Shown: one piece after another, positions 34,334-43,194 of the stretch
How the letters are laid out: each line of letters starts with the position of its first letter
Position numbering within the stretch: position 1 is the stretch's first letter
DNA from: Oscillospiraceae bacterium
GTDB taxonomy: Bacteria > Bacillota > Clostridia > Oscillospirales > Ruminococcaceae
Assembly (NCBI GenBank): GCA_016291435.1
Contig: JAEEXH010000004.1
Coordinates: 1 to 64,000 of the forward strand
Length of the DNA: 64,000 nucleotides
Reading direction: 5' to 3'
Translations under genes and position numbers: made by a program
Notes under the pieces: model-generated
Seen by the model: the letters and a program-made list of their open reading frames with translations, nothing else
Database searches by the model: none
What the model was told of the DNA's origin: nothing

Positions 34334-36610
34334 TCACGCCTTGAAAATGAAGCGGATGAAATTATACATCAGCGGGGTGACAGTGCTGCTGTCATGATTG
34401 CCGCCCGGGACGGAAAGATAGAGATTCTCCGTACCGTGCTCGGTGAACAGGTTGCTGTACTGCTTCGGATAGGTGCCGACCATGCCGTCGTTCGTGCCGC
34501 CCGCGATCAGCAGCAGATAGGGCGCATACGGCGCGTCGATGCGAATCTCCTCCTTGCTCATGCAGCCCGGGTGATTCATGAACTGATCGACCGTCGGGAA
34601 GATGCCGGGCGCAGGCGCCGCCGCACCGATATAGCCGACCTTCTCTTTGCACATCATGCCGATATAGAGCGACTCTCTGCCGCCCATCGAAAAGCCCGCG
34701 ACTGCCGTGTTCTCGCGCCCGGTCTTCACAGGGTAATGCGATTCGATATACGGCATCAGGCTGTCCGGCAGATCCTCGGCAAAGGCATCGTAAAACGGGA
34801 CATCCGCGGAGCCGCTGCCGCTCTCTGTCATGCGGTCAGGATTGGTATACTGCGCGGTGAAGACAATGATCATCGGCTCCGCATCGCCGGATTTGATGAG
34901 GTTCGTCGCGATCTCGCGGATGCCGTTTCCGTTCACCATCGCGTTCTCATCGCCGCCGTAGCCGTGGTTCACATAGAGCACGGGATATTTCCGGCTGCTG
35001 TCGAACCCGGGCGGGAGCCAGATATTTGCGCCCTTGTCGTGATTCGCCTTTTTCGAGAAATAGGTGATGTGCGTAAGTGTGCCCTCTGCCGATTGCAGCG
35101 CCGAGGAAGGCACGCCGGCAGTGAGCTGACTGCGGATGCTGTTCATATATGCCTTGCCGTCGGGCTCGAGCGGTGTCGGATCGGTCAGAAGCCGCTTCAG
35201 CAGCGTGAGATCCTTCGCATTCAGCTTCCCGTCACCGTTCAGATCGGCGGTGTCAAGAAAGACAGTGCTCTCCTCTGCGAGCAGAAAGCGGAAGAGCGCA
35301 GTGATGTCCGCGACCGTGACACCGCCGTCGTGATCGGCGTCGCCCTTCTGATATGTCTGCTGCGCCGCGCTGCCGTCCGTGACCGTGACTGTGACATCAT
35401 CGAGATAAAAATCGCAGGTGTCGGTGTCCGTTTCAAAATAGAGCACGGGATTCATGCCGCTTTTCACCTTGTAATCGGCGGCGGAAAGCGTCAGCCATTC
35501 GCCCGGTTTCGCATCGCCCTCCGCAAAGGTATCATAGACCGCGCCGTCATCGGTATCATACTGCATTGTCATTTTGAAATGCACGGCTGCATTCGTGTTC
35601 TGCATCACCTGCGCCTGCACGGTGAGATATGTTCCTTCCGGACAGCGGCTGCCCGGAAGCGCATAGGCAATGCCCTGCCACGCCGCCGTGCGCCCGCTGA
35701 CAAGCGCCGACTGCACGCCCTCAAAGGCGCTGCCCTGTGAGACGGCAACACCCGCGCCGCCGCGGTTCTGCCAGCCGGAAAGCCCGCGTTCAAAATCAGA
35801 GTGCAGGATGACAGGGTCATCCGGATCGTAGCTGCTGCTGTTCCGTTCTTCAAGATAATCCCCGATGACGCCTGCCCAGAATTTGCCCATTTTCTCATAG
35901 CCTGCGCCGCTCGGATGCAGATTGTCGCTTTGCAGATCGGCAGTGCCGTTCAGACAGCCGTGCACATCGGCAAAGCGCACATCATCGCCGTAGGATTCCG
36001 CGACCTTCTTCACGGTATTGTTGTAATTCCCGACCCGCTGACTGTTGCCGCCGTATGCAGTAAATTCCGGGATAGAGCCCATGAAGACCGTGCTCCCCTC
36101 CGGCAGATCGCTGCGGATATAGTCGATCAGCGTGTGCAGATCGGTCTCGCAGTCGCTGAGATTACGGTTTGCAGTCATATCATTCGTGCCGATAATCAGC
36201 AGAACAATATCAGGTCTCGCATTTTTGACTGCGTCCTTCGATTTCAGCTTTTCATAGAGTCCGTTTTCACCCCAGCTCGGAATCGGATACTGCTGCTTGA
36301 TTGTGTAGCCGCTGTATCCGGCATGATTGTCGTCGTAGGTGACAGACTGCCCGTTATAACTGAAGCTTGCGGAATTCCTGCCCTCGGGCCCGACCATATC
36401 GAAGCCGATGCCGTCCGCACGGAGCGCATAGTCCAGATACTTGCGGTAGCCGCCGTCCTCGCCGTAGCCGAATGTAATGGAGTCGCCGATCGGCATAATG
36501 CGCACCGGATCTGCGGCATTTGCCGTCATTCCGCCGGCACACACCGCAGCGGAGCACATGGATGACAGCGCCAGCGCTGCGGCTGTCAGCAGCGTTCTCA
36601 TTCGTTTCAT
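34334..36610 (-). CDS. secreted bimodular carbohydrate esterase: SGNH (CE3-like) - CBM - dockerin - CE1-like
   Basis: This 758-residue exported enzyme opens with a signal peptide (about 1-33). The SGNH domain (35-260) has PIGDSITFGYG with Ser near 44, IGTNDMT and DNLHPSGAGYEKM, as in CE3 acetylxylan esterases. A beta-sandwich carbohydrate-binding module similar to CBM22/CBM4 follows (SDFERGLSGWQNRGG). Next is a type I-like dockerin with two calcium loops (DADHDGGVTVADI and DLNGDGKLNAKDL). Last comes a CE1-like esterase with nucleophile GFSMGGRES and His in GGNHDSS. It would remove acetyl and feruloyl-type esters from xylan while docked on a scaffoldin. The ATG at 36610 has AAAGGGGAAAG; a GTG at 36631 does not. 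Confidence 0.88.
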   Translation of the reverse strand: MKRMRTLLTAAALALSSMCSAAVCAGGMTANAADPVRIMPIGDSITFGYGEDGGYRKYLDYALRADGIGFDMVGPEGRNSASFSYNGQSVTYDDNHAGYSGYTIKQQYPIPSWGENGLYEKLKSKDAVKNARPDIVLLIIGTNDMTANRNLSDCETDLHTLIDYIRSDLPEGSTVFMGSIPEFTAYGGNSQRVGNYNNTVKKVAESYGDDVRFADVHGCLNGTADLQSDNLHPSGAGYEKMGKFWAGVIGDYLEERNSSSYDPDDPVILHSDFERGLSGWQNRGGAGVAVSQGSAFEGVQSALVSGRTAAWQGIAYALPGSRCPEGTYLTVQAQVMQNTNAAVHFKMTMQYDTDDGAVYDTFAEGDAKPGEWLTLSAADYKVKSGMNPVLYFETDTDTCDFYLDDVTVTVTDGSAAQQTYQKGDADHDGGVTVADITALFRFLLAEESTVFLDTADLNGDGKLNAKDLTLLKRLLTDPTPLEPDGKAYMNSIRSQLTAGVPSSALQSAEGTLTHITYFSKKANHDKGANIWLPPGFDSSRKYPVLYVNHGYGGDENAMVNGNGIREIATNLIKSGDAEPMIIVFTAQYTNPDRMTESGSGSADVPFYDAFAEDLPDSLMPYIESHYPVKTGRENTAVAGFSMGGRESLYIGMMCKEKVGYIGAAAPAPGIFPTVDQFMNHPGCMSKEEIRIDAPYAPYLLLIAGGTNDGMVGTYPKQYSNLFTEHGTENLYLSVPGGNHDSSTVTPLMYNFIRFIFKA

Positions 36611-36675
36611 ATTCGCTTTCCCCTTTTTCACAGATTGCAGACGGATGATATTTCTATAAAGTCTTCCATATTATC

Positions 36676-37384: not shown

Positions 37385-37448
37385 ATCCGTCGGAGACATG
37401 TTCATGACAAGCAAAGCTGAGCTCCCCGCACGCACGGGGAGCTCAGCT
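37385..37448. terminator. bidirectional terminator, copy A of a duplicated 3' flank
   Basis: AGCTGAGCTCCCCG (37415-37428) and CGGGGAGCTCAGCT (37435-37448) form a perfect 14-bp stem with a six-base loop. On the plus strand CGTTTTC follows. It is preceded by ATCCGTCGGAGACA (37385-37398), which recurs at 39572-39585 with a related hairpin. Confidence 0.8.
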
Positions 37449-37462
37449 CGTTTTCATCGTAT

Positions 37463-39220
37463 TTACGCCTTTTGCAGCGTCAGCGTCAGACAGTTCAGCC
37501 CGAGCGAATTGACATATTCCGCATCCTTTGTCAGAGCCATCACCATCCGCAGACCGATGTGCTTGGTCAGATCTTCCTCCTTCTGATGCCGCGTGTATTC
37601 CACAGGATCGAATCCCGCACAGTTGTCGCGGATGCGCAGGATGACCGATTCCTCCTGTATCACAAGACGAATGTCAATTTCATGTGTGTTTCTGCCAGCA
37701 AAGCCGTATTCGACGATATTCATGCCCATTTCCTCGATGCAGAGCGAGACTGCCATGCTGCACTGCTCGCTGAGGGAATGAGCGCGGCAGAATTCCGCAG
37801 CTTCCTCCGATGCCGCAAGAACCTGCTCACGCTCCGATGCACGGGTCTCCAGCAGGCTGTCCGGCGCTGCACCGAAGGTCTCGGGCAGCAGCGAAAATGC
37901 CTCCGCGGTGAAGGAAGGCTTTCCGTACTGCACGAACACATAGGCCGTGATGAGCAGCAGCGTGAGTCCCTCGCCGCAGAGATAGCCGAGCCAGATGCCT
38001 GTCACGCCGAGGAAGCGGCTCAGCACGAACGCAGAGAGCGCTGTCAGCACAAAATTCTGACAGACGGAGATCGCGCAGGTCAGGCGCACCCGCTCGATCC
38101 CCTGATCGTAATTCTTGAAGCAGGTATTCAGCCCGCAGGGAACCAGAGAGAGCACAAACAGCCGCAGACCCGTGACGGTCATATCCTTTGCTGCGGGATT
38201 TTCAAGGAAGAGCGTCGCGAGCGGCGCTGCCAGCAGGATCACAGCAATCGTCACGGCAGCGCAGATCGCGGCACAGTACCGCGTCATGATGCCGACGAGC
38301 TCCTTGAGTGCGCTGCGGTCGCTGTCGGTGTAGAACAGCGAGGAAAGTGTCAGCACGACCGCAGCAGGGCCGGAGCTGAATGAATAGCAGATATTGCCGA
38401 CCGTCGAAATGACCGAATAGGAAGCGACTGCAAGATCGCTGCCGACGGAGAGCAGCAGCTTGTTCAGCGTGAAGGTCAGCAGCACAAGGCTCACCTGATT
38501 GATCATGGTCGGCACGCCTGCGCGGAGCATCCGTGCACAGACCTTCCATGTGTAGAGCTTCGGGCGCAGCTTGAAAATGCAGCTTTTGCGCAGAAAATAC
38601 ACGATGCCGATGACGAATGCGATATAGTAGCTGACGCTGGAGGCAAGCCCCATGCCGAAGGTGCCCTGTTTCAGCACAAAGACGTTCAGGAGATCCATGA
38701 CCACATCGCCGGCGGTCATGGCAAGCACCGCCGCGACAAGGCGCGTCCGGCTGCCTGCAATCTGCAAAAACGGCACCATGATCTGTGAGAGAATAAATGC
38801 CGGTGCGCCGATGATGAAGCCGCGGAGATAATCCCGCGTCAGTCGGAACACCTCATTGTCGGGAGAGGGAGTTCCCGCGCCGAGCAGCGTGCAGATCGGA
38901 TCGGTGAACAGCAGCACCGCTGCCATGCCGGCAAGGGCGATGCCTGCCGATGTCATGACCGACACGGTATAGCAGGCGTTCGTGCCTTCTGTGTCACCGC
39001 TTGCGATTGTGCGCCCGCAGATCACCTGCACGCCCGCCGCGATCATGCTGCCGAGTGCCGCGAAGACGAGCAGCACCGGTGTCGCGAGACCGTAGGCGGT
39101 CATTGAGGGCAGTCCGAGAAAGCGCCCGATCATAATGCTGTCGATCAGCATGCAGAGCATCACGGTCATCGCAGAGACGATCTGCGTGACCAGCATTTGC
39201 CGGAACAGTTTTTTTATCAT
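37463..39220 (-). CDS. MATE-family transporter fused to a C-terminal anti-sigma-type ATPase (HATPase_c) domain
   Basis: The leftward 585-residue protein is a fusion. Residues 1 to about 440 form twelve membrane helices of the MATE multidrug/metabolite exporter family (LFRQMLVTQIVSAMTVMLCMLIDSIMIGRFLG, then the paired half with VRLTCAISVCQNFVLTALSAF). Residues about 452-585 form a GHKL ATPase domain like RsbW/SpoIIAB. It has N-box EEMGMNIVEYG, G1-like RIRDNCAGFDP and G2-like HIGLRMVMAL, so ATP binding is plausible. The start at 39220 follows CAGGAG; an extension to 39274 lacks a ribosome binding site. The substrate is unknown. How the two halves interact cannot be read from sequence. Confidence 0.88.
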   Translation of the reverse strand: MIKKLFRQMLVTQIVSAMTVMLCMLIDSIMIGRFLGLPSMTAYGLATPVLLVFAALGSMIAAGVQVICGRTIASGDTEGTNACYTVSVMTSAGIALAGMAAVLLFTDPICTLLGAGTPSPDNEVFRLTRDYLRGFIIGAPAFILSQIMVPFLQIAGSRTRLVAAVLAMTAGDVVMDLLNVFVLKQGTFGMGLASSVSYYIAFVIGIVYFLRKSCIFKLRPKLYTWKVCARMLRAGVPTMINQVSLVLLTFTLNKLLLSVGSDLAVASYSVISTVGNICYSFSSGPAAVVLTLSSLFYTDSDRSALKELVGIMTRYCAAICAAVTIAVILLAAPLATLFLENPAAKDMTVTGLRLFVLSLVPCGLNTCFKNYDQGIERVRLTCAISVCQNFVLTALSAFVLSRFLGVTGIWLGYLCGEGLTLLLITAYVFVQYGKPSFTAEAFSLLPETFGAAPDSLLETRASEREQVLAASEEAAEFCRAHSLSEQCSMAVSLCIEEMGMNIVEYGFAGRNTHEIDIRLVIQEESVILRIRDNCAGFDPVEYTRHQKEEDLTKHIGLRMVMALTKDAEYVNSLGLNCLTLTLQKA

Positions 39221-39241
39221 GAGATCACTCCTGTTGTTTTT

Positions 39242-39282: not shown

Positions 39283-39311
39283 ATTATAGCACAGCGGGCA
39301 GTATTTTTCAA
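39283..39311 (-). promoter_or_regulatory. sigma-A promoter for the MATE fusion gene
   Basis: On the minus strand TTGAAA (39306-39311) and TATAAT (39283-39288) are separated by 17 nt. Confidence 0.75.
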
Positions 39312-40609: not shown

Positions 40610-42739
40610 TTAGTTTTCCGCATCATTCCTGAGCATGCGCATCGCATTCAGCACCGCCAGCACCGTCACGCCGACATCGCCGAAGACCGCCGACCACATG
40701 CCTGCCAGTCCCAGGGCACCGAGCGCCAGCAGCAGCAGCTTCACGCCGAGCACGAACACCAGATTCTGCGTGACGATCTGCTTTGTGCGCCGTGCAGTGT
40801 CAAGTGCATCACAGAGCCGCATCGGCTCATCCGTCATCAGCACAACATCTGCCGCCTCAATCGCGGCATCCGCACCGAGCGCACCCATCGCGATGCCCAC
40901 GTCGGCACGCGCCAGCACCGGTGCGTCATTGATGCCGTCGCCGACAAATGCCAGCTTGTCACCGCCCGTGAGCGCTGCCTCCAGCTTCTCGATCTCCGCG
41001 ACCTTGTCGCCCGGCAGCAGCTCCGCGTGTACCTCATCAATGCCGAGCTCCGCCGCAATGCGCTCTGCGGTCTCGCGGTTGTCGCCCGTGAGCATGACCG
41101 TGCGCTTGATGCCCGCCTGCCGCATCGCCTCGACCGCCTGCTTCGCATCGGGGCGCAGCGTATCGGAAATGACAATGCAGCCTGCGAATTTTCCGTCTGC
41201 CGCCGCATAGACCTTTGTGCCGATGCTGTCACAGGGCGTATACGCGATGTGTGCCTGCTCCATCAGTCTTGCATTGCCGAGCAGCACCGTCTGCCCGCCG
41301 ACCTCTGCACGGATGCCGCAGCCTGCGATCTCCTCCACAGCGCCGGTCTCCATGTCATATTTGCCGGTGTATGCCGCACAGACCGACTGCGCAATCGGGT
41401 GACCCGTGTGCTGCTCGCCGTGTGCCGCAAGCCGCAGCAGCCGGGCGCTGTCATAGCCCTCTGCGGGCAGGAGCTCCGTGACGCGGAAGCTCCCCTCTGT
41501 CAGCGTGCCGGTCTTGTCAAATGCCATCACCGTGACGCGGCTCAGCGATTCGAGATAATTGCTGCCCTTCACGAGCACGCCGCGCCTTGATGCCGCACCG
41601 ATTCCGCCGAAGAAGGTCAGCGGCACGGAAAGCACGACCGCGCACGGGCAGGAGATGATCAGGAAAACGCACGCTCTGCGGATCCACGCAGACCATTCCG
41701 CATGCAGCAGCAGCGGCGGCACGAGCCCCAGCAGCACAGCGCAGATCACAACGACCGGCGTATAATACCGCGCAAATTTCGTGATAAACTGCTCGGCAGG
41801 CGCCTTTCTTGCGGCGGCGTTTTCGACCATGTCGATCACGCGGGAAGCGGTCGAGTCGCGGAAGCCTCTGGTCACCGTGACCGTCAGCGGCGCATTCAGA
41901 TTGATCGCGCCGGAAAGCACCTCATCGCCCGCTTCTGCCTTCCGCGGCACGGATTCGCCCGTCAGCGCGGCGGTGTCGAGCATCGAGCTGCCCGCGCACA
42001 CCTTACCGTCAAGCGGCACTCGCTCCCCCGCACGAATCTCGATCACATCGCCGGGTCTGACTTCCTCTGCACGCACCTCGCGGCTGCTGCCGTTTTCAAG
42101 AAGTCTTGCGGTATCCGGGCGGATATCCAGCAGCGCAGAGATCGTTCTGCGGGAGCGCTGCACAGCCATATTCTGAAACCACTCGCCGACCTGATAGAGC
42201 AGCATGATCGCCGCCGCCTCCGGGTATTCGCCGATGCAGAACGCACCGACCGTCGAGACAGTCATCAGAAAATGCTCGTCGAAGATCCTGCCGTGCAGAA
42301 TATTCCGCGCAGCGTTCAGGATCACATCATATCCTGCAATCAGATAGGCGATGAAAAACGCGATTGCAGATGCCTTCTCCTGCTGCATGGCATGCAGAAG
42401 CAGCAGCCCCGCGAAGAAGCATGCCGCCGCTACAAACAGCCGCCACGGGAGCAGCTGCTCCGCTGCTTCACTGTGCGTGTGACCTTGCTCCTGCGCATGA
42501 TCCTGTTCGTGTGCCGCATCCTGCGCGATGACCTTCACATCGGGCTCGTGATGCTTCACAATCGCCTCGACCTGCGGTGTCAGATGCTCCGCTGTGAGGC
42601 TGTCGCTGCGGACGGTAAGCGTCTGCTGCATGAGATTGACCGCAGAATGCGTGACGCCCTCAAGCTCTGCAACGGCGCGTTCGATCTCCGCCGAGCAGTG
42701 CGGGCAGTCAAGCCCCTGCAATGTATAGACAAGTTCCAT
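40610..42739 (-). CDS. cadA: heavy-metal translocating P-type ATPase (Zn/Cd/Pb type)
   Basis: This 709-residue P1B-type pump has an N-terminal metal-binding domain with GLDCPHC (Cys12, Cys15) and a His-rich linker (HEQDHAQEQGHTHSE). The membrane CPC motif is in SCPCAVVLS, the phosphorylation site in DKTGTLTEG, and the hinge GDGINDAPVLARADVGIAMG. The plain CPC with a His-rich linker and its CadC-like regulator indicate export of Zn(II), Cd(II) or Pb(II) rather than copper. The start ATG at 42739 has GGAGG at 42745-42750; a longer frame to 42763 is rejected. A palindromic operator lies just upstream at 42765-42786. Confidence 0.93.
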   Translation of the reverse strand: MELVYTLQGLDCPHCSAEIERAVAELEGVTHSAVNLMQQTLTVRSDSLTAEHLTPQVEAIVKHHEPDVKVIAQDAAHEQDHAQEQGHTHSEAAEQLLPWRLFVAAACFFAGLLLLHAMQQEKASAIAFFIAYLIAGYDVILNAARNILHGRIFDEHFLMTVSTVGAFCIGEYPEAAAIMLLYQVGEWFQNMAVQRSRRTISALLDIRPDTARLLENGSSREVRAEEVRPGDVIEIRAGERVPLDGKVCAGSSMLDTAALTGESVPRKAEAGDEVLSGAINLNAPLTVTVTRGFRDSTASRVIDMVENAAARKAPAEQFITKFARYYTPVVVICAVLLGLVPPLLLHAEWSAWIRRACVFLIISCPCAVVLSVPLTFFGGIGAASRRGVLVKGSNYLESLSRVTVMAFDKTGTLTEGSFRVTELLPAEGYDSARLLRLAAHGEQHTGHPIAQSVCAAYTGKYDMETGAVEEIAGCGIRAEVGGQTVLLGNARLMEQAHIAYTPCDSIGTKVYAAADGKFAGCIVISDTLRPDAKQAVEAMRQAGIKRTVMLTGDNRETAERIAAELGIDEVHAELLPGDKVAEIEKLEAALTGGDKLAFVGDGINDAPVLARADVGIAMGALGADAAIEAADVVLMTDEPMRLCDALDTARRTKQIVTQNLVFVLGVKLLLLALGALGLAGMWSAVFGDVGVTVLAVLNAMRMLRNDAEN

Positions 42740-42764
42740 GATGTGACCTCCGTACAGTTTCAAT

Positions 42765-42786
42765 CAGTTGAACAACCGTTCAACTG
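42765..42786. promoter_or_regulatory. ArsR/CadC-type operator, 22-bp perfect palindrome (cadA side)
   Basis: CAGTTGAAC-AACC-GTTCAACTG: nine base pairs on each side of a four-base centre. It lies between the repressor gene and the pump gene, 26 nt upstream of the pump start. The core resembles known SmtB/ArsR-family operators with TGAA/TTCA arms. Confidence 0.75.
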
Positions 42787-42820
42787 CCAGAGCGCAGAAG
42801 ACGGCGGTTTTGCTCCGCCC

Positions 42821-43174
42821 TCATTCTGCGATATGCTCATATCCCATATCAATGATCTTTTTCACATGATCATCCGCGAGGGAGTAATAAACGATCTGCC
42901 CCTCCTTGCGGTATTTCACAAGCCGCGCAAGCCGCAGCGATTTCAGCTGATGCGACACCGCCGATTTTGTCACACCGAGCAGCGCCGCAAGATCGCAGAC
43001 GCACATCTCCTCCTGCTCCAGCGCATGCAGGAGCTTCACGCGGGTAGCATCGCCGAACAGCTTGAAGAGCAGGGCAAGATCGGCATAGGCTTCATCGGCA
43101 AGCATTGCTTCACGCACGGCTCTGACGGTATCCTCATGAATGACTTCACAGTCACAGACAGGCTGATGCTCCAT
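42821..43174 (-). CDS. cadC: CadC-like metal-sensing ArsR-family repressor
   Basis: This 117-residue winged-helix regulator has the recognition helix in LLGVTKSAVSHQLKSLRLARLVKYRKEGQIVYYSL. Both metal sites of CadC appear at matching positions: Cys7, Cys9, Cys58 and Cys60 (CDCE; EMCVCDL) for the alpha3N site, and Asp101, His103, His114 and Glu117 for the alpha5 site. CadC of Staphylococcus has Cys7, Cys11, Cys58, Cys60, so only the second cysteine is shifted. It should derepress on Cd, Pb or Zn. Start ATG at 43174 follows GGAG; an upstream ATG at 43192 would overlap that site. Confidence 0.9.
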   Translation of the reverse strand: MEHQPVCDCEVIHEDTVRAVREAMLADEAYADLALLFKLFGDATRVKLLHALEQEEMCVCDLAALLGVTKSAVSHQLKSLRLARLVKYRKEGQIVYYSLADDHVKKIIDMGYEHIAE

Positions 43175-43194
43175 ACGGATCGCTCCTTTCATAT

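Follow-up and report, generated by a model that had tools for sequence, protein, structure and literature searches.

The Oscillospiraceae bacterium studied here carries a gene in which a MATE exporter continues in frame into a C-terminal GHKL domain with the fold of RsbW and SpoIIAB. In this study, the fusion of the two parts was confirmed as real in the window, by which is meant the whole stretch of 64,000 nucleotides that was analysed. On the minus strand, a single stop-free open reading frame of 585 amino acids runs from the ATG at 39220 to the stop at 37463. Comparison with related loci suggested that the product may be a MATE exporter whose repurposed RsbW/SpoIIAB-like C-terminal domain stands at the receiving end of a partner switch, a reading to which we give an even chance. 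The features of the gene were as follows:

37463 to 39220, minus strand: MATE-GHKL fusion gene, 585 amino acids (open frame; Pfam MatE and HATPase_c_2; same architecture in 79 of 80 relatives, the best 80 of 189)
39227 to 39232, minus strand: likely ribosome-binding sequence AGGAGT (sequence reading)
39283 to 39311, minus strand: promoter-like TTGAAA-17-TATAAT, 11 of 12 positions (consensus match only)
37415 to 37448, no strand assigned: 14-pair hairpin between the fusion gene and a convergent flavodoxin-like gene (a score for its T-rich tail came from the plus strand only)
37925 to 39220, minus strand: MATE exporter part, residues 1-432, twelve helices (model; Foldseek; profile match to PfMATE and DinF-BH)
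39140 to 39142, minus strand: D27, aligned with D41 of PfMATE (profile alignment; invariant in 51 sequences)
38693 to 38695, minus strand: D176, aligned with D184 of PfMATE (profile alignment; at least 90% in 51 sequences)
37856 to 37924, minus strand: linker, residues 433-455 (AlphaFold model)
37466 to 37855, minus strand: GHKL (RsbW/SpoIIAB-fold) domain, residues 456-585 (Pfam, models, Foldseek)

The preliminary description of this DNA had proposed that a MATE protein reads on into a GHKL part without a stop, and the open 585-residue frame bore this out. The GHKL profile match on which that proposal hung was also found, as Pfam placed both MatE (1.7e-25, in two stretches) and HATPase_c_2 (5.8e-15, residues 462-581) above their cut-offs. 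In the MatE test, PF01554 passed with 90 bits at a cut-off of 24.9. The NCBIfam scores were low, with the matE model TIGR00797 at 126.2, below its cut-off of 147.4, and with weak matches of the RsbW and SpoIIAB models (E 0.013 and 0.093, respectively), which indicated that both halves of the fusion are divergent. The AlphaFold model of the whole protein, built with 51 sequences, had a mean pLDDT of 86.7. Its twelve long helices extend to residue 432 and are followed by a linker and, from residue 456, by a separate alpha/beta domain; residues 541-560 were the least certain (block pLDDT 55-60). Moreover, the survey for the same fusion in other genomes, which had been suggested as a check, returned it in 79 of the best 80 of 189 relatives and in 41 open reading frames longer than 540 amino acids, the window included. 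A frameshift or assembly error is unlikely given this recurrence, and an artefact of sequencing or assembly was rejected as the source of the continuous frame.

Each half of the protein was assigned by structure as well as by profile. Foldseek with the whole chain matched MATE structures (3wbn with a TM score of 0.84 by target length). D27 and D176 of the exporter half correspond to D41 and D184 of PfMATE, which we take to have a role in cation coupling, and their retention suggested that the exporter half is probably active. The alignment used for residue conservation took 50 of the 80 relatives kept (the best 80 of 189), and a further alignment took 36 of them. For the C-terminal half, a search of PDB sequences with the single GHKL domain found only an unrelated ribosomal protein (E 0.58), and a search with a 37-row profile placed RsbW first, weakly (E 0.13). 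After these weak sequence searches, fold comparison settled the assignment: the isolated domain was modelled with a pLDDT of 80.2, and its first 15 Foldseek matches were all SpoIIAB, RsbW and UsfX/anti-SigF entries.

Several searches pointed to a MATE-GHKL fusion family that appears widespread across Clostridia and some relatives. A search at E 1e-20 through 148 genomes of the window's family gave a full-length match in 10 of them, with 13 proteins between them, and the remaining listed matches covered the MATE part only, except for one fragment at a contig edge (G080). Fusion profiles made from the alignment of these 13 proteins were used, and 24 of 391 genomes of the class (the window's included) had fusion frames confirmed by both profiles. 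The family and class genomes combined gave the 41 fusion frames above 540 amino acids; frames of 540 amino acids or fewer (L046, L087 and L107) were excluded from the counts. At the level of the phylum (299 genomes), open frames of 584-623 amino acids were seen at the GHKL match in four genomes from outside the class, as judged by frame length and GHKL match only. In addition, a scan with 54-62% identical orthologs as queries found 189 stretches encoding relatives, of which the best 80 were kept. The 79 fusions among these best 80 of 189 were 54-65% identical to the window protein and came from Ruminococcus, Oscillospiraceae, Ruminococcaceae, Lachnospiraceae, Blautia, Clostridia, Clostridiales and Bacillota, all of them metagenome-assembled or uncultured except one from Ruminococcus sp. 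FC2018 (L149). Rumen or gut sample names were attached to many of these 79 (from the best 80 of 189). In one locus (L087:8617-10298), the MATE part and a MATE-end/GHKL part were read as two adjacent frames, which may be a split fusion or an assembly error.

The surroundings of these relatives linked the family to partner switching. Neighbours were called with context profiles from one to five seeds of the family loci; counts at the seed loci are circular, and the 79 scan loci gave no seeds. A STAS, RsbW-like or PP2C gene lay within 5 kb of 40 of the 79 fusions (from the best 80 of 189 relatives), with at least two of the three at 31 loci and all three at 16. Among fusions of this set flanked by 8 kb or more on each side, 23 of 32 had such a gene within 8 kb. 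At L145, the STAS, RsbW and sigma genes were grouped like spoIIA, and owing to this resemblance the counts were used as 39 of 79 and 22 of 32. In the same 79 fusions, STAS genes were within 5 kb of 36 (L145 included; none at the window locus) and canonical RsbW genes within 5 kb of 31; 74 of the 79 partner-switch neighbour frames of the best 80 of 189 relatives were on the same strand as the fusion. In the set of 41 frames, 23 had STAS, RsbW or PP2C genes within 8 kb. Plain MATE genes of the window's family served as controls, and none of 20 had STAS, RsbW or PP2C genes beside them (L116, L117, L119 and L131 with shortened flanks). The Fisher test against these controls gave 2.6e-7 for 22 of 32, 1.4e-5 for 39 of 79 and 8.4e-6 for 23 of 41. 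A SpoIIE-type PP2C was also found 1.5-2.6 kb from the match in all four genomes outside the class, whose matches are defined by the GHKL part and the frame length.

The SSAGL phosphosite context was present in 53 of 56 small STAS proteins of the fusion loci. At the locus of a 54% identical ortholog of the window protein (L094), the order was STAS, PP2C, fusion and a 529-residue STAS-APH-HATPase_c_2 protein. Pfam analysis of four PP2Cs beside window-type fusions found dCache_1 in L136 and L184, the latter also with HAMP, and the phosphatase only in L094 and L207. Sigma-factor genes were found at 3 of 131 loci, one of them beside a spoIIA-like pair; the search used a single SigG-like query, which distant (ECF) types could escape. 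A sigma factor beside the fusion as the output was not supported by this count. Taken together, these findings make a tie between the family and partner switching highly probable, and this tie is firmer than the direction of control. The link to a partner-switching pathway made in the preliminary description is thus well supported, by the STAS, RsbW and PP2C neighbours of relatives set against 0 of 20 plain-MATE controls and not by the window locus itself. The same account had stressed a single leftward gene; the gene does stand alone in the window, but this wording hides the operon present in many relatives. Its term anti-sigma-type ATPase held for the SpoIIAB/RsbW fold but fitted less well otherwise, with lid and glycine motifs shortened or lost and sigma genes found at only 3 of 131 loci by one SigG-like query. 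The three motifs that it had named were located at the following positions:

37703 to 37735, minus strand: N-box EEMGMNIVEYG, residues 496-506, with E497 and N501 (all 117 fused domains have E497, and 107 have N501)
37604 to 37636, minus strand: G1-like RIRDNCAGFDP, residues 529-539, with D532 kept and C534 at the usual glycine (Cys in 79 of 81 window-type domains; Gly in 53 of 53 RsbW-type domains)
37541 to 37561, minus strand: G2-like HIGLRMV, residues 554-560, with one glycine left of GGxG (GGxG in 0 of 81 window-type domains)

Motifs were counted in 117 distinct fused domains (81 window-type and 36 other fused) and in 53 distinct RsbW-type domains from the family loci, with identical domains counted once. 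D532 was present in 111 of 117 fused domains, and E497, N501 and D532 occurred together in 80 of 81 window-type domains and in the window protein. N501 or D532 was absent from 9 of 36 other fusions and from one window-type domain (L192); all four fusions linked to GH3/ATP-grasp genes (L041, L045, L080 and L082) were among those without N501 or D532. At the G1 glycine position, 14 of 36 other fused domains also had Cys, and Gly was found in 2 of 81 window-type and 16 of 36 other fused domains. The stretch from FDP to the G2 glycine (the ATP lid) had 20 residues in all 53 RsbW-type domains and 16 in 71 of the 81 window-type ones; in other fused domains it varied (11-26). GGxG was kept in 52 of 53 RsbW-type domains versus 2 of 36 other fused domains, that is, 2 of 117 fused domains overall. 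Compared with RsbW/SpoIIAB kinases, the window domain has the nearest fold and E497, N501 and D532, and it does not have the G1 glycine, the 20-residue lid or GGxG. From this pattern we read the fused domain as a putative binding module common to several export systems, one that may have passed beyond using ATP. The latter view may be wrong for the window copy, which keeps the Glu, Asn and Asp and may still bind nucleotide. Separately, C478, C534 and H554 were near-invariant in window-type domains (81, 79 and 78 of 81) and rare in RsbW-type domains (1, 0 and 0 of 53), and Cys 478 was found in 113 of 117 fused domains; a redox or metal role of these residues is possible.

A quick tree took in 16 of the 81 window-type domains, all 36 other fused domains and 30 of the 53 RsbW domains. 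The 52 fused rows were placed opposite the 30 RsbW rows across one branch with an SH-aLRT of 93 (not starred) and several long branches, which is compatible with a single origin of the fused domain. The fused subclades broadly tracked their neighbours, namely GH3/ATP-grasp genes, NRPS genes, five rows whose neighbours are PP2C and RsbW genes, and the group of the window.

The mechanism that we propose on the basis of the operonic relatives begins with a sensor PP2C phosphatase, in some loci with dCache and HAMP parts, which would dephosphorylate the small STAS protein, and a separate canonical RsbW-type kinase would restore the phosphate. The STAS protein, in one of these two forms, would then bind the GHKL domain of the exporter, and this binding would set the activity of the exporter, so that the output of the switch would be transport and not the release of a sigma factor. 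An alternative is that the exporter acts as the sensor and that the fused domain is a switch kinase, tethered to the membrane and still active; its phosphorylation of STAS would be governed by cargo or by the state of transport, and the output would be transcriptional, by way of a sigma factor or another target elsewhere. The three residues kept together in 80 of 81 window-type domains speak for such a kinase, as do the same partner-switch neighbourhood and one fusion (L044) with a kinase-like lid and G2 motif resembling those of the locus kinases. We nevertheless consider it unlikely, since GGxG persists in 2 of 117 fused domains, the lid is below 20 residues in most, a second kinase is unneeded where a canonical RsbW lies within 5 kb (31 of 79 loci in the best 80 of 189 relatives), and sigma genes occur at 3 of 131 loci (one SigG-like query). 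Transport gated by the domain appears to fit the data better than cargo reporting to a sigma factor, and the loci suggest a signalling cascade that may act on a transporter instead of on gene expression.

The domain could also gate the exporter alone, as a nucleotide or energy sensor with no protein partner, while the partner-switch genes serve something else. The retained N-box and G1 Asp would suit such a sensor, as would the persistence of the domain in orphan loci, where the GHKL part evolved no faster than in operonic ones (19 versus 40, p = 0.75). This explanation is quite improbable in our judgement, given that 9 of 36 fusions outside the window type, including 4 of 4 linked to GH3/ATP-grasp genes, are without N501 or D532 yet keep the domain, and that the partner-switch neighbourhood, at 0 of 20 controls, would have to be coincidence.

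The receiving-end reading has to account for the window locus, where no STAS, RsbW or PP2C partner genes were found within 8 kb. Upstream of the fusion gene are a metal P-type ATPase gene and an ArsR regulator gene, and downstream are the convergent flavodoxin-like gene and then a gene for a GDSL-lipase/dockerin protein. The P-type ATPase (40610-43192) is of the heavy-metal type with the ArsR-type regulator gene just upstream of it, and the product of 34334-36631 combines GDSL lipase, CBM_4_9, dockerin and esterase parts in one protein. Also counting against this reading, 10 of the 41 loci had no partner-switch gene and no biosynthetic gene within 8 kb. Elsewhere in the genome of the window, contig C16 (L047:4397-8060) carries a STAS gene, an RsbW-type domain, a dCache-PP2C and a short GHKL protein together, and the orphan window copy could work in trans with this module. 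PP2C, STAS and RsbW-type genes were likewise found together, off the fusion contig, in the orphan genomes G035 (C46) and G071 (C103). In G065, listed as 99% complete and with a 62% identical ortholog, the matches outside the fusion came to one PP2C of the SpoIIE type, one STAS and one strong HATPase_c_2; these look like the sporulation set, which left no evident dedicated partner in that genome. Possible trans partners are therefore present in three of four orphan genomes and not evidently in the fourth; the case of G065 is a further point against the receiving-end reading. In the C16 module, the start of the STAS frame may change frame near an A-run, and the beginning of the short GHKL protein resembles, by eye, the first and last helices of a MATE, with HATPase_c_2 as its only Pfam match.

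The nearest relative among the best 80 of 189 (L158:8938-10377) also weighs against the receiving-end reading. It shares 77% identity across residues 1-455. Past the linker its frame stops, and no GHKL domain was readable in any of the three downstream frames. This relative favours the view that the domain is a leftover in the lineage of the window and that the protein is an ordinary MATE pump with an idle GHKL part, a view to which the absence of partner genes at the window locus and the long terminal branch of the window GHKL domain (0.89 versus 0.32 for the MATE part, a ratio that ranks 8th of 83) also lend weight. However, the window deviates at 1 of 24 strongly conserved GHKL columns, no stop interrupts its frame, the switch module is present elsewhere in the same genome, and the orphans as a group evolve no faster, all of which make an idle domain very unlikely. 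In the comparison of 19 orphan with 40 operonic loci (24 undecided), no faster GHKL evolution was detected in orphans (p = 0.75 for the ratio and 0.47 for the branch), and relaxed evolution in orphan loci as a class was not supported.

Clades of the fusion family other than that of the window adjoin NRPS or GH3/ATP-grasp genes. In the set of 41 frames, 14 had NRPS, GH3 or ATP-grasp genes within 8 kb, and 31 had partner-switch or biosynthetic genes; the 10 with neither include the window and several with short flanks. If the receiving-end reading is widened to the family, a partner-switch cascade would end at a MATE pump through a catalytically degenerate RsbW-like domain in Clostridia and some relatives, and would serve several cargo classes, namely NRPS-reductase products, GH3/ATP-grasp products and another class in the window's clade. 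We put this wider proposal forward tentatively, at a little under even confidence. NRPS products, and aldehydes among them, are plausible cargo for the clade that flanks NRPS genes. NRPS-adjoining fusions were observed at L043, L081, L085, L092, L093, L103, L105 and L111 (also L040 and L042), eight of them with a reductase-type end, which presumably points to peptide-aldehyde chemistry; the fusion may serve in these loci as the dedicated exporter of a peptide-aldehyde pathway. GH3 genes lay beside the fusions L041, L045, L080 and L082, with ATP-grasp genes in L045 and L082, and L045 also had phosphopantetheinyl transferase and LuxR-type genes.

The known system nearest in each half differs from the fusion in a definite way. 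PfMATE (3vvn/3wbn/6fhz) and DinF-BH (4lz6) share the twelve-helix fold and the D41/D184-type residues, and their chains of about 440-500 residues match the fusion to about residue 435, whereas the fusion carries about 130 further residues as a GHKL domain. The RsbW/SpoIIAB kinases (6m36, 1til and 1th8) share the fold, the N-box Glu and Asn and the G1 Asp, and relatives of the fusion have STAS/PP2C neighbours; unlike these kinases, the fused domain is carried on a transporter, its G1 glycine is replaced, its lid is shorter, GGxG is lost, and few sigma genes are near. The SulP/SLC26 carriers have a C-terminal STAS domain as a cytosolic tail. They are the nearest analogy, being carriers with a partner-switch-type cytosolic tail, but they fuse the STAS partner, while the MATE fusion carries the RsbW-like partner and has other switch genes adjacent in many relatives.

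Partner switching is known mainly as a means of freeing sigma factors. In the SypA/SypE system, STAS and RsbW-like parts serve something other than a cognate sigma factor. To our knowledge, SypA/SypE is not a transporter fusion. Both it and, in the proposed reading, the MATE fusion would use STAS/RsbW-like parts apart from a cognate sigma factor, the latter in a transporter. SypA and SypE are a STAS protein and a serine kinase of Vibrio fischeri (PMC10120452). The titles and abstract openings returned by full-text searches contained no MATE-GHKL fusion and no partner switch on a MATE exporter; each half belongs to a known family, and the combination and its operons were not found described in those titles and openings. 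If the proposed mechanism is true, the fusion would represent a post-translational switch for secretion, with an RsbW-like partner on the exporter and seldom near a sigma gene, and it would offer a handle on the timing of nonribosomal peptide export by gut and rumen Clostridia. The fusion operons make the idea of an exporter switch directly testable.

Further unusual proteins were observed in the fusion loci. A STAS-APH(choline-kinase-like)-HATPase_c_2 protein of about 530 amino acids was found beside window-type fusions at L094:10452-12041, L095:7139-8701 and L102:12702-14309, and a STAS-APH form without the kinase, of about 394 amino acids, was found beside another window-type fusion (L151:4495-5679). 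A protein of about 460 amino acids lies between the STAS gene and the fusion at L039:10778-12166 and L044:7680-9047, of which the L039 copy had no Pfam match. L039:7016-9004 encodes a PP2C phosphatase with a match to the QueT transporter family in its N-terminal part.
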